A program made the position numbers and the translations under genes. From Flavobacteriales bacterium (lineage in GTDB: Bacteria > Bacteroidota > Bacteroidia > NS11-12g > UBA955): 64,000 nucleotides of DNA. Shown here one piece after another: positions 490 through 64,000 of the stretch. The DNA lies in NCBI GenBank assembly GCA_002737705.1, contig NSIM01000004.1, positions 1 through 64,000 of the forward strand, given 5' to 3'. Positions within the stretch are counted from its first letter, which is position 1; every line of letters begins with the position of its first letter. The notes under the pieces are model-generated. The model was given only the letters and a program-made list of their open reading frames with translations, searched no databases and was not told the origin of the DNA.

Positions 490-1137
490 CTATCTAACTA
501 ATATAATCATTGTTTCAAGATAAAACTCAACTTTCCCAGTACCAATATCATGGCTTCCACCTACAATTCCAATGGCACCTGATTCAAGCATTTCTTTTAA
601 AATCGGGCTCTGTTCCATTATTGCTTTAACTGTTCGTTTTACATTAATGGTTGCCACATTTTCAACAAAATTTTCGTTATCAGAATTACGATTGTCTATT
701 ACGGTTTTTTCATCGTCAACAGCAAGTTTGATTTTGCTTAATAAATTAGTCAGGTTGCCCATTTTAAAATTATCGCATGCACCTTTTACCGCACCGCAAT
801 TTGTATGTCCTAAAACAACTATAATTTTTGCCCCTGCCACTTTACAGCCAAATTCCATACTGCCCAAAATATCTTCATTGATTATATTTCCTGCAATACG
901 AATACTAAATACATCACCAAGTCCTTGGTCAAAAATTAATTCGGCAGAAGTTCTGCTATCAATGCAACTAAGAATTACCGCGAAGGGGTGCTGTCCGTCC
1001 GATGTTTCATTTGCCTGTTGTAAAAGATTGCGGTTTGCTTTAAGATTATTTACAAATCTTTGGTTCCCGTCTTTTAATATATCAAGTGCTATTGCGGGTG
1101 TGATGGCTGCCTGCGATTCTTTAGTGTGTGTTTTCAT
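490..1137 (-). CDS. beta-class carbonic anhydrase
   Basis: Zn-ligand motifs CIDSRTSAELIFDQGLGDVFSIRIAGN and GHTNCGAVKGA. Confidence 0.93.
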   Translation of the reverse strand: MKTHTKESQAAITPAIALDILKDGNQRFVNNLKANRNLLQQANETSDGQHPFAVILSCIDSRTSAELIFDQGLGDVFSIRIAGNIINEDILGSMEFGCKVAGAKIIVVLGHTNCGAVKGACDNFKMGNLTNLLSKIKLAVDDEKTVIDNRNSDNENFVENVATINVKRTVKAIMEQSPILKEMLESGAIGIVGGSHDIGTGKVEFYLETMIILVR

Positions 1138-1139
1138 GG

Positions 1140-2537
1140 TTAATCAAATTTATCAGGGTTACTGTTCTTATTTCTCATATAATTAAATGCTCTTGAAATG
1201 TGGTCTGCCTCATCTAATTTTTTGATGATATGATGATCTCCCATATAATTCAGAATAATATAAATTCCGATGGCACTCAACACAGCCGTCAGAAAACCGA
1301 AAAACGGAAGCATCAGTGCGGTGTATATCATTAACAAAAGATGTACATTACTTTTCATTGCAAAGATTTCTTTCAATTCATCCACTTTAACCATATTGGT
1401 AGCAACATAAAGCAAAATTCCGCCAATGCAAGCCATTGGCACATTTTCTAAATAAATTGCAAGAAATGCAGCCATCAAAAGCTTAAAAGCAAATTTCGCT
1501 ATTCCGGCTAATGGCGAAATTGCACCGAGTTTTATACTTACCGCAGTTCTTGCCAAAGCTCCCGTGTGAGGAAATCCGTTGAATAAGGGAGTAAAAACAT
1601 TTACTATCCCTTGACCCCAGAATTCCTTGTTAGGACTAAATGGAGTCCCTTTGTTGTTTGCCAGGCGATCCGCCATTCGGGAGCAAAGCAGACTCTCTAC
1701 AGCTGCTACAAAATAAATTGCAACAACATAATATGCTAAGTCAAAAATTATTTGAGCGTTCCAGCTTGCCGGGAGAACAGGCGTTGTAAAAACAAAAAAG
1801 TCGGTAGGTATTGAACCGTATTTATCTTTAATCAACACCAAACCATTACCTGCCCAAAATGTTTTTGCTGCAAGAAATCCGAGAGCCAAACCGAGTAATG
1901 GCCCCGGTAAAAATGGGGAGACTTTTTTTGCTATTCTGCACAAAATAAAGGTTGCAATGGCAATTATTAAGGCATAGACATTGAATTCACTTAAATATTT
2001 AAAAATGTTTTGAATTTGTTCATTTAATCCGTAGCCCAATTTACTTTTGTATCCCAACACTTCTCCCATTTGTGAAAATGCGATAACAACCGCAATACCT
2101 GCAGTAAATCCAACTACAATGGAATTTGGAACTTTCGCTATCACCTTTCCCAGTTTTGCCACTCCGCTGATCATTAACAGAATCCCTGCAATAATTGATG
2201 CGAGAATTAAAAATCCGTGATTGTAAGTTGCCATTAACCCCCCAATAATGGGGATGTAGGCAGCCGTTGGACCGTATACCTGATATTTTGAGCCGCCAAA
2301 TAAGGCGCCAAGCAATCCTGCCACGGCACCTCCAACAATCCCCTGTTCAGGACGCAGACCCGAAGCCATTGCAAAGCCCATTGCCATAGGGATAGCAACC
2401 ATTGCTACAATTAATCCTGCCGTAAGATCTTTAATAATATTTCCTGTTACGTTTCCTTTTTTCAGGTCTTCATACCTTTGGTCAAATGGATTTAAAAAAT
2501 ATTTAAGTGTTGCATATAATGAATGATCTGTTTTCAT
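1140..2537 (-). CDS. SulP family inorganic anion (bicarbonate/sulfate) transporter, apparently lacking a STAS domain
   Basis: SulP TM1 signature DLTAGLIVAMVAIPMAMGFAMASGLRPEQGIVGG and YQVYGPTAAYIPI; start set at MKTDHSLY (ORF track extends to 2612); ends soon after the last TM segments. Confidence 0.9.
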   Translation of the reverse strand: MKTDHSLYATLKYFLNPFDQRYEDLKKGNVTGNIIKDLTAGLIVAMVAIPMAMGFAMASGLRPEQGIVGGAVAGLLGALFGGSKYQVYGPTAAYIPIIGGLMATYNHGFLILASIIAGILLMISGVAKLGKVIAKVPNSIVVGFTAGIAVVIAFSQMGEVLGYKSKLGYGLNEQIQNIFKYLSEFNVYALIIAIATFILCRIAKKVSPFLPGPLLGLALGFLAAKTFWAGNGLVLIKDKYGSIPTDFFVFTTPVLPASWNAQIIFDLAYYVVAIYFVAAVESLLCSRMADRLANNKGTPFSPNKEFWGQGIVNVFTPLFNGFPHTGALARTAVSIKLGAISPLAGIAKFAFKLLMAAFLAIYLENVPMACIGGILLYVATNMVKVDELKEIFAMKSNVHLLLMIYTALMLPFFGFLTAVLSAIGIYIILNYMGDHHIIKKLDEADHISRAFNYMRNKNSNPDKFD

Positions 2538-2602
2538 AGATAGATGTTTTAAGAAGTGAATACAATGTTTAAAACCAGCACAAACAATGAGATGAAGGGG
2601 GG

Positions 2603-2612
2603 GGGGTGCCAC
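2603..2612. repeat. approximately 10-nt poly-G (poly-C on minus) homopolymer at the SulP relic junction; coordinates +/-6
   Basis: gatgaaGGGGGGGGGGtgccac read directly (G10). Confidence 0.85.
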
Positions 2613-2775
2613 TGGCTACGCCTACCACAATACCACCAACAATGCCCGCAATAATGCCTGCAAACAGCGGTGCTCCAGATGCGAGGGCTATTCCCAAACA
2701 TAAAGGGAGTGCCACAAAGAAAACGACAATACTCGCAGATAAGTCGTATTTGAGATTTCTTAAAAGATGTTTTAT
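2613..2775 (-). pseudogene. 5' relic of a second SulP transporter (about 54 codons)
   Basis: Minus-strand frame reads (I/M)[55 protein letters not shown], then breaks at the G10 tract; the expected start codon reads ATA. Confidence 0.82.
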
Positions 2776-2805
2776 AAGGGTGCGGTTTAAGATTGTGCAA
2801 CAAAT

Positions 2806-2838
2806 ATAGCAATACTATTTAATAGATAGTAATACTAT
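2806..2838. promoter_or_regulatory. tandem 13-bp palindromic operators (ATAGCAATACTAT at 2806-2818; ATAGTAATACTAT at 2826-2838) in a divergent promoter region
   Basis: Two 6+1+6 inverted repeats with centres exactly 20 bp apart; -7-like boxes TATATTTG (minus, 2801-2808) and TACTTTTG (plus, 2854-2861) on either side. Confidence 0.7.
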
Positions 2839-2880
2839 TATTAATAATATGTTTACTTTTGTTTTTAAAACAATAAAAAA

Positions 2881-3540
2881 ATGGAGCTATCTCTGAAAAT
2901 AAAGATGAACGAAAAGCTGTTTCTTCGTAACCCTGAAGAAACAGAATTAGGAAGGAAGATTATACAGCATGGCATTGTCCTTATTCATAAGATTGGATTT
3001 GAAGCATTTACATTTAAAAAATTAGCGGAGAAAATTACAACCACAGAATCAGGAATTTACCGCTATTTTGAAAACAAACACCGCTTACTTATATATATTG
3101 TTGACTGGTATTGGAGCTGGCAGGAATACAGAATCATTTACCATGTTTACAATGTAAAAAATCCGGAAATAAAAATTAAAAAAACAATACAGCTATTGTC
3201 GGCCTATGTTAAAGATGATATGACTACTGATTACATAAATGAAAAACTGCTTTATGAAATCGTAATGTGCGAAGGCGCTAAATCATTTCTTACCAAACAC
3301 GTTACAGAAGACAATAAGGCAAAGCTATTTAAACCGTATAAAGATTTGTGTGCAAGAATTGCAGGTTTTATAAAGGAATACAACCCGAAATACAAATACC
3401 CAAATACATTGGCATCCACCATTATAGAAATGGCTCATTCACAAAAATTTTATATGCAGAATCTTCCATCTCTAACTGATTTTGGAGGAGAGAAAGATGA
3501 AAAAAAATTGGTTGCCTTTCTTGAAGAATTGGTTTTTTAA
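2881..3540 (+). CDS. TetR/AcrR family transcriptional regulator
   Basis: N-terminal HTH GFEAFTFKKLAEKITTTESGIYRYFENKHRLLIYIV. Confidence 0.88.
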   Translation: MELSLKIKMNEKLFLRNPEETELGRKIIQHGIVLIHKIGFEAFTFKKLAEKITTTESGIYRYFENKHRLLIYIVDWYWSWQEYRIIYHVYNVKNPEIKIKKTIQLLSAYVKDDMTTDYINEKLLYEIVMCEGAKSFLTKHVTEDNKAKLFKPYKDLCARIAGFIKEYNPKYKYPNTLASTIIEMAHSQKFYMQNLPSLTDFGGEKDEKKLVAFLEELVF

Positions 3541-3699
3541 ATATTGGGATTTGAGGAGAGTAAAAAATCTTAGACCATTGCCGTTAGTGCATTCCATCTT
3601 TTGTCGCAATTATAGGAAGGTTGATAAATGGAAGTAGGGGGGGAAAGATAGGGTAATGGCCTAAAAATTGTATCCATACCTGTATCCACTTAGAAAGCA

Positions 3700-3731
3700 A
3701 AAACCCTGAAAACAAACATTTTCAGGGTTTT
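3700..3731. terminator. intrinsic terminator hairpin, likely bidirectional
   Basis: perfect 13-bp stem AAAACCCTGAAAA-caaaca-TTTTCAGGGTTTT. Confidence 0.85.
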
Positions 3732-3742
3732 AATTCTTTACA

Positions 3743-3817
3743 TGGTAGCCCGTAGGAGAATCGAACCCCTCTTTCATCCGTGAAAGGGACGTGTCCTAAC
3801 CGATAGACGAACGGGCC
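3743..3817 (-). tRNA. tRNA-Glu(UUC), 3' CCA encoded
   Basis: minus strand GGCCCGTTCGTCTATCGGTTAGGACACGTCCCTTTCACGGATGAAAGAGGGGTTCGATTCTCCTACGGGCTACCA folds as a cloverleaf; anticodon loop CTTTCAC. Confidence 0.96.
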
Positions 3818-3830
3818 ATTTAAAAGGGTG

Positions 3831-3861
3831 CAAAGATACTGAAGAAAATCTCTCCATCAAA
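3831..3861 (-). promoter_or_regulatory. Bacteroidota primary-sigma promoter for tRNA-Glu
   Basis: minus strand TTTG-N19-TATCTTTG, matching consensus TTTG-N19-TAnnTTTG, 13 bp upstream of the tRNA 5' end. Confidence 0.8.
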
Positions 3862-3876
3862 TGAAAAACAAAAAAA

Positions 3877-4251
3877 CTATTGCGTTTCGTGCTTGCTTAT
3901 GGTGCCATCACCCCAGAGCTCTTCCAATTGGTAAAAGTCTCTTTTATCTCCAGAGAAGATGTGAACCACTACATTGATATAATCAAGTAAAACCCATTCT
4001 GACTCATCGTTTCCTTCTCTGAATGCGGGCTTTTCTTGTAATGCTTTTCTCACTTCATCTTCAGCACTATCTGCCAAAGCATCCACCTGGCGAGCAGAAC
4101 CCCCATGACAAATCACAAAAAAATCGGTAAACGCGTTTGGGATTTTTCGCAAATCGATCGAAACAATGTCTATCCCTTTCTTCTCTTGTAATCCGTAAAC
4201 AATTACCGCCACCAAAGTTTCTACAGATGAACTTTGAACTTTTTTTGCCAT
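3877..4251 (-). CDS. rsfS: ribosome silencing factor RsfS
   Basis: NAFTDFFVICHGGSARQVDALADSAEDEV ... WVLLDYINVVVHIFSGDKRDFYQLEELWGD. Confidence 0.93.
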   Translation of the reverse strand: MAKKVQSSSVETLVAVIVYGLQEKKGIDIVSIDLRKIPNAFTDFFVICHGGSARQVDALADSAEDEVRKALQEKPAFREGNDESEWVLLDYINVVVHIFSGDKRDFYQLEELWGDGTISKHETQ

Positions 4252-4288
4252 TTATTCGTTTACTTTTGCTACAAAGAACGTCATTTTG

Positions 4289-5128
4289 ATGGATATTCAG
4301 TTTACCCAGACCCTCTCCGGCACACATCTTTTTTATACCACTGGATGTAAATCTACCCAAACCAGCATAAAATTTTGCATTGCAAATAACAGTATTTTCG
4401 GACTCTTTCACTCCTCACCCATCGCTTTGTATACGTTTAATCAAAGCCACGGCAAGGGTCAGCAGGATAAAATTTGGGAGGGTTTGGCAGGCCAAAATCT
4501 GGCGATTTCTATTGCATTTCCTCTACTTGACAATTTGGAATATCCATTGGTTGTGATCAACAAGGCAATTGCAGTAGCGGTGAGGAATGCCTTGCAATTG
4601 TTCTCATCTGATTTGCTTTTTATTAAATGGCCCAATGATATCGTAACCGACACGCACAAAATCTGTGGCTTGCTAATGGAGGTCGTTTCAATTGCAAATA
4701 AAAAATATTTTCTCTTGGGGATTGGTGTGAATGTGAATCAGAAATCATGGGATAATCAGCCGAAAGCCGTTTCATTGTGCAGCTTAAATAACGCCCCAAT
4801 AGACATGCATTCAATGTTGGAGCCCTTGCTTACTGGCTTGGTGAAAGCATGGTCAAAAACCACCATTGAATTTCCACTCAAGGATCGGATTACCGCAGAA
4901 TTATCGGCAGATTTTGACCGTGTATTGTGGCATAGGGAAAAAGGCATCACGCTTCAAATGGACACATTGTTTCAGAAAAAAAATTCGATTAATCCTTCAT
5001 TGGTCCATGAGAAAAATTGTTTTGGGGGAATATTATTGGGTGTAAACGATGCCGGATGCATTTTTATTCAATTGCCAAGCGGTGATTTTGGAATTTTTCA
5101 TCATGGGGAGGTTCGGATTGTATTTTAG
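4289..5128 (+). CDS. birA: biotin--[acetyl-CoA-carboxylase] ligase
   Basis: BPL/LplA fold motifs TFNQSHGKGQQDKIWEG and FIKWPNDIVTDTHKICGLLMEV. Confidence 0.9.
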   Translation: MDIQFTQTLSGTHLFYTTGCKSTQTSIKFCIANNSIFGLFHSSPIALYTFNQSHGKGQQDKIWEGLAGQNLAISIAFPLLDNLEYPLVVINKAIAVAVRNALQLFSSDLLFIKWPNDIVTDTHKICGLLMEVVSIANKKYFLLGIGVNVNQKSWDNQPKAVSLCSLNNAPIDMHSMLEPLLTGLVKAWSKTTIEFPLKDRITAELSADFDRVLWHREKGITLQMDTLFQKKNSINPSLVHEKNCFGGILLGVNDAGCIFIQLPSGDFGIFHHGEVRIVF

Positions 5129-63585: not shown

Positions 63586-64000
63586 ATGACACATTTAACA
63601 ACCTTACTACCAATCGCCTCTGACAATTACGTAGCATTTACGTTTTTTACCGGAACAATGGCCATGATGGCCGCATCCTTATTCTTCTTTTTTGAACTGA
63701 GTAACACAAAGCCAGAATGGAGGACTTCCATTCTTGTTTCTGGCTTAATTACTTTCATTGCAGCAGTGCATTACTACTACATGAGAGATTACAACTTAGG
63801 TACTGGTCAGTCACCTATCTTCTTCCGATATGTGGATTGGATTCTTACTGTTCCATTAATGTGTGTTGAGTTTTATTTAATTACCAAAAAAGCAGGTGCA
63901 AAAATTAACTTGTTATGGAAATTGATTTTTGCTTCTCTAATTATGTTGATTACTGGTTATTTTGGAGAAGCAGTTTACAAAGGTTCAGCCGCAATATGGG
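63586..64000 (+). CDS. microbial rhodopsin (proteorhodopsin-type light-driven proton pump), truncated by window end
   Basis: own translation MTHLTTLLPIASDNYVAFTFFTGTMAMMAASLFFFFELSNTKPEWRTSILVSGLITFIAAVHYYYMRDYNLGTGQSPIFFRYVDWILTVPLMCVEFYLITKKAGAKINLLWKLIFASLIMLITGYFGEAVYKGSAAIW...; helix C RYVDWILTVPLMCVE. Confidence 0.96.
   Translation, partial: MTHLTTLLPIASDNYVAFTFFTGTMAMMAASLFFFFELSNTKPEWRTSILVSGLITFIAAVHYYYMRDYNLGTGQSPIFFRYVDWILTVPLMCVEFYLITKKAGAKINLLWKLIFASLIMLITGYFGEAVYKGSAAIW

Follow-up and report, generated by a model that had tools for sequence, protein, structure and literature searches.

The proteorhodopsin gene at the right end of the window

The window analyzed in this study comprises bases 1–64000 of contig C34 (129,102 bases) of the G000 assembly, a draft of 1.92 Mb in 45 contigs. 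At its right end, one proteorhodopsin gene begins on the plus strand with the ATG codon at 63586; 138 whole codons and the first base of codon 139 are located within the window (63586–64000), and the reading frame is still open at the edge. The first-pass annotation had recognized this segment as a truncated proteorhodopsin of ∼138 codons, and it had pointed to a frameshift beyond the window as one matter to be checked. Past the edge, on the same contig, the ORF continues to a stop codon that ends at 64302; it encodes 238 residues and contains neither internal stops nor frameshifts. In region L002 (C34:60001–79000), whose first 4,000 bases are identical to the last 4,000 of the window, the gene spans nucleotides 3586–4302 (coding part 3586–4299). 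The rhodopsin gene is thus intact, the window edge merely cuts through its coding sequence. No other rhodopsin was found in our search across the assembly.

The Pfam Bac_rhodopsin model matched the 138 residues in the window with an E-value of 2.1e-23 and the full 238 residues with an E-value of 4.8e-39. Among PDB entries, the best matches are the proteorhodopsin chains 9jov and 9jou (E about 5e-91; 5.3e-91 for 9jov), followed by GPR (1e-49) and blue PR (1e-44), and the top ten are proteorhodopsins or a close microbial rhodopsin. By sequence comparison, the strength of these matches is far beyond chance.

The presence of Gly at the position of XR 156 and Tyr at that of XR 207 would fit a xanthorhodopsin-family pump instead of a proteorhodopsin. 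However, compared to the proteorhodopsins (E 5e-91 to 1e-44), the matches to the xanthorhodopsin-type chains are far weaker, with E-values of 1.5e-23 for XR (3ddl) and 1.9e-18 for Kin4B8, and the protein is without the longer B–C loop found in XR-type proteins. In the PDB comparison it is not nearer to XR, GR and Kin4B8 than to the proteorhodopsins, and membership of the xanthorhodopsin family is hardly credible. Owing to its higher similarity to proteorhodopsins than to XR and Kin4B8, the protein is, by sequence, a proteorhodopsin and not a xanthorhodopsin.

Pump residues and colour tuning

The window carries RYVDWILTVPLMCVE and AAVHYYYMRD, exactly as quoted by the first-pass annotation. Alignment to GPR identified His62 (63769–63771, plus strand), located in the AAVHYYYMRD segment, as the equivalent of GPR His75. 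The helix C motif (63835–63870, plus strand) contains Asp84, Thr88, Met92 and Glu95, which correspond to the proton acceptor (97), position 101, the tuning residue (105) and the proton donor (108), respectively. All these residues, the DTE set, the Met at 105 and the His at 75, align where they had been placed by eye. Beyond the window edge, Asp219 and Lys223, both in the DAVNKIGFG segment, align with GPR Asp227 and the Schiff-base Lys231; the Asp counterion is present, as is the Schiff-base Lys that the annotation had proposed to score, and both are invariant across a 25-member alignment of relatives. One structural estimate had to be corrected: the D–E loop had been taken to be about three residues longer than in GPR, whereas the D–E region, counted from the helix-D Glu to the helix-E Ala, is 16 residues in length compared to 15 in GPR, one residue longer (phmmer shows +3 and −2).

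D/T/E combined with Met at 105 typically marks an outward proton pump tuned to green light. GPR itself has Leu105; according to PMC8386455, Leu and Met are frequent at this position among green PRs, and Met92 falls within this pair. The residue comparisons support the earlier reading as a green-tuned outward proton pump, and we infer outward proton pumping and green absorption for the G000 protein.

Gene neighbourhood and placement

A hairpin of 16 pairs followed by a T stretch is located 3′ of the rhodopsin stop codon (L002:4323–4357), and the next gene is maf. Five terminator-like sites were observed, compared to 1.0 (sd 0.9) in shuffled sequences. Judged from these sequence features, the rhodopsin gene is probably transcribed alone. 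The annotation had proposed to look for blh or crt genes downstream; none is adjacent, the gene past the hairpin being maf.

In the sister genome G012, the rhodopsin gene is flanked by the same genes as in G000, with a LysE-type gene and a gene for a 411-residue protein on the upstream side, and with maf, an S8 protease gene and glyA on the downstream side. Collinearity with contig C13 of G012 has its end points at 3737 and 63765 of the window, as determined by blastn sampled at both ends only; the identity to C13 is 88–89% at the right end and 87–91% at the left end. Two G012 contigs share an exact overlap of 141 bases within the rhodopsin gene, through which they join.

Two observations could be taken as signs that the rhodopsin is foreign to the organism, through contamination or misassembly: the assembly has a stated contamination of 3.3%, and the protein shares 78% identity with proteins of another genus but 65% with those of most of its own genus. 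However, the neighbours in G012 are the same on both sides, with 86–95% identity; the rhodopsin and maf are equally diverged from G012 (86% identity each), and the exact overlap joins both G012 contigs within the rhodopsin gene itself. An origin by contamination or misassembly is extremely unlikely; owing to the shared flanks and the 141-base overlap, the placement of the rhodopsin in G000 is genuine.

The identity pattern of the protein also bears on its history. Apart from G012, the rhodopsin shares ∼65% identity with those of twelve further species in its genus and 78% with those of two species of another genus (G020 and G031). Different from the rhodopsin, maf is 63% and 66% identical to the genes of G013 and G014, respectively, and 57–58% identical to those of G020 and G031. 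In the rhodopsin tree, G000 and G012 form one clade with G020 and G031 (support 1.0), and the rhodopsin and maf trees disagree. Because the rhodopsin groups with another genus while maf, the one comparison gene, does not, these data suggest horizontal acquisition or replacement of the rhodopsin.

Retinal supply

No blh, crtY or RPE65-type oxygenase gene was found in the G000 assembly, for which a completeness of 100% is given. The blh and crtY genes of the sister genome G012 overlap and adjoin era, and nearly all relatives with rhodopsin have blh. We also failed to find era in the G000 assembly, whereas full-length era is present in 17 of the 20 genomes searched. The era-blh-crtY block gave no DNA match in G000, in a search run without positive control. 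The G012 block lies just outside the collinear stretch, beyond the point that matches window position 3737; in its place, the remaining part of the G000 contig, up to its end, encodes a TetR regulator, a SulP-type permease and a carbonic anhydrase.

These three genes are located at 490–3540 of the window, outside the stretch collinear with G012. The carbonic anhydrase and SulP-type permease genes are adjacent on the minus strand, and may form a bicarbonate uptake pair.

Missing genes in an assembly rated 100% complete could mean that blh and crtY are truly lost, retinal then coming from an external source or through some unknown route. The lack of all three retinal-related genes in such an assembly is in line with true loss, and so is the report of one actinobacterium that makes functional rhodopsin without known retinal genes (PMC7734400). 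Speaking against it are the simultaneous lack of era, a gene found at full length in most of the genomes searched, and the occurrence of blh in nearly all relatives bearing rhodopsin. Loss of retinal synthesis had been our leading reading; it was dropped once era, the neighbour of blh in G012, proved absent too, and we now regard it as unlikely. Because era is absent together with its G012 neighbours blh and crtY, the three genes probably fall into an assembly gap, which would be located at the left end of contig C34. Even a draft with a completeness rating of 100% can lack blh because of an assembly gap.

The arrangement of the retinal genes varies among the relatives. In G031 (contig C6; L103:8606–10618), one ORF of 670 residues, directly after the rhodopsin, encodes a lycopene cyclase (residues 12–376) and a Brp/Blh beta-carotene dioxygenase (residues 422–662). 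The blh matches of ∼17 relatives fall within open frames of 640–715 residues, which suggests the same cyclase-Blh fusion. Unlike in G031, the lycopene cyclase and blh of G012 are separate overlapping genes.

The fenestration glycine and carotenoid genes

The last base of the window, 64000 (plus strand), is the first base of codon 139, which alignments identified as the fenestration position. The first-pass annotation had located this residue a few codons past 64000, and left it between Gly and a bulky residue; codon 139 begins at base 64000 itself, and the residue is Gly. Gly139 shares its column with XR Gly156, Kin4B8 Gly153 (both numbers counted along the alignments) and GPR Phe152; for this site, Phe has been reported in GPR and Trp has been reported in BPR (PMC9151804). 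Trp138, Gly139 and Tyr191 are invariant in the 25-member alignment of relatives, so Gly is normal for the group.

A carotenoid site has been defined by the fenestration Gly together with a conserved Tyr (PMC12308411). Both residues were found in the G000 protein, as Gly139 and as Tyr191, which aligns with XR Tyr207 and Kin4B8 204. Binders of 3-hydroxylated xanthophylls carry polar residues at Kin4B8 positions 208 and 209, S/Y in Kin4B8, T/D in KR1 and T/E in EinA29G6 (PMC12308411). At Kin4B8 positions 204, 205, 208 and 209, the G000 protein has Tyr191, Leu192, Thr195 and Gly196, respectively. Thr195 agrees with KR1 and EinA29G6, whereas Gly196 is unlike the Tyr, Asp or Glu of the known binders; this Gly may weaken the binding of a carotenoid or the transfer of energy. 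We lean slightly toward xanthophyll binding by the G000 proteorhodopsin.

Carotenoid genes are present in the genome, on a contig other than that of the rhodopsin. We identified crtI (TIGR02734, E 3e-108) and crtB (SQS_PSY, E 3.4e-42), and a CruF-like Caroten_synth protein is encoded near them. Directly ahead of crtI and crtB is a CrtZ-like ORF of 148 residues (L099:8892–9338, contig C23), which contains the beta-carotene hydroxylase-type histidine clusters HKYIMH, HESHH, HDVFVH and HHLHH, recognized by eye; it has no Pfam match at E 0.1 and no NCBIfam match at E 0.01.

Proposed function and comparison with known rhodopsins

We are highly confident that the gene encodes an intact, single-copy proteorhodopsin of the Bacteroidota type, predicted to act as a green-light proton pump, with a Gly139 site possibly for xanthophyll and with blh probably in an assembly gap. 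The assignment of the organism to Bacteroidota is deduced from its gene content and from the proteins of the relatives. In the proposed mechanism, retinal would be bound on Lys223 of the seven-helix opsin, and absorption of green light would lead to outward pumping of protons, with Asp84 as the acceptor, Glu95 as the donor and His62 beside the counterion. Gly139 would leave the retinal ring open toward the membrane face; together with Tyr191 and Thr195, it forms a candidate site for a 3-hydroxylated xanthophyll, which could serve as an auxiliary antenna and would be supplied by the cell's own pathway. The retinal is probably made by a blh hidden in the assembly gap.

The protein is an ordinary proteorhodopsin for its group, and this kind of protein is already known. 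Zeaxanthin and lutein are bound by KR1, a proteorhodopsin of Dokdonia eikasta (PMC12308411); given this published binding and the invariance of the fenestration Gly among the relatives, the G000 protein joins a group already described. There is a slim chance of something more unusual, a fenestrated proteorhodopsin whose Thr/Gly pair at 208/209 imposes a xanthophyll geometry different from that in KR1 and Kin4B8, the host possibly having no retinal-forming enzyme of its own. The G000 protein represents one more cleanly assembled proteorhodopsin with an antenna-permitting Gly and with carotenoid genes in the same genome, and it is a reasonable candidate for expression work on what Kin4B8 positions 208 and 209 contribute to carotenoid choice.

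Like GPR (2l6x, 7b03), the G000 protein has the equivalents of His75, Asp97, Thr101, Glu108, Asp227 and Lys231; different from GPR, it has Met in place of Leu105, Gly in place of Phe152 at the fenestration, and one more residue in the D–E region. It shares D/T/M/E in helix C and WG in helix E with 9jou and 9jov; these two are shorter ahead of helix G, and at Kin4B8 position 209 they have Pro instead of the Gly of the G000 protein. The fenestration Gly and the Tyr at XR 207/Kin4B8 204 are common to XR (3ddl) and Kin4B8 (7ytb, 8i2z), but these belong to a different family and their similarity is much weaker. KR1 is of the proteorhodopsin family and, like the G000 protein, carries Tyr and Thr at Kin4B8 positions 204 and 208, respectively; its Met at 205 and Asp at 209 are replaced by Leu and Gly, respectively, in the G000 protein (KR1 residues from PMC12308411).
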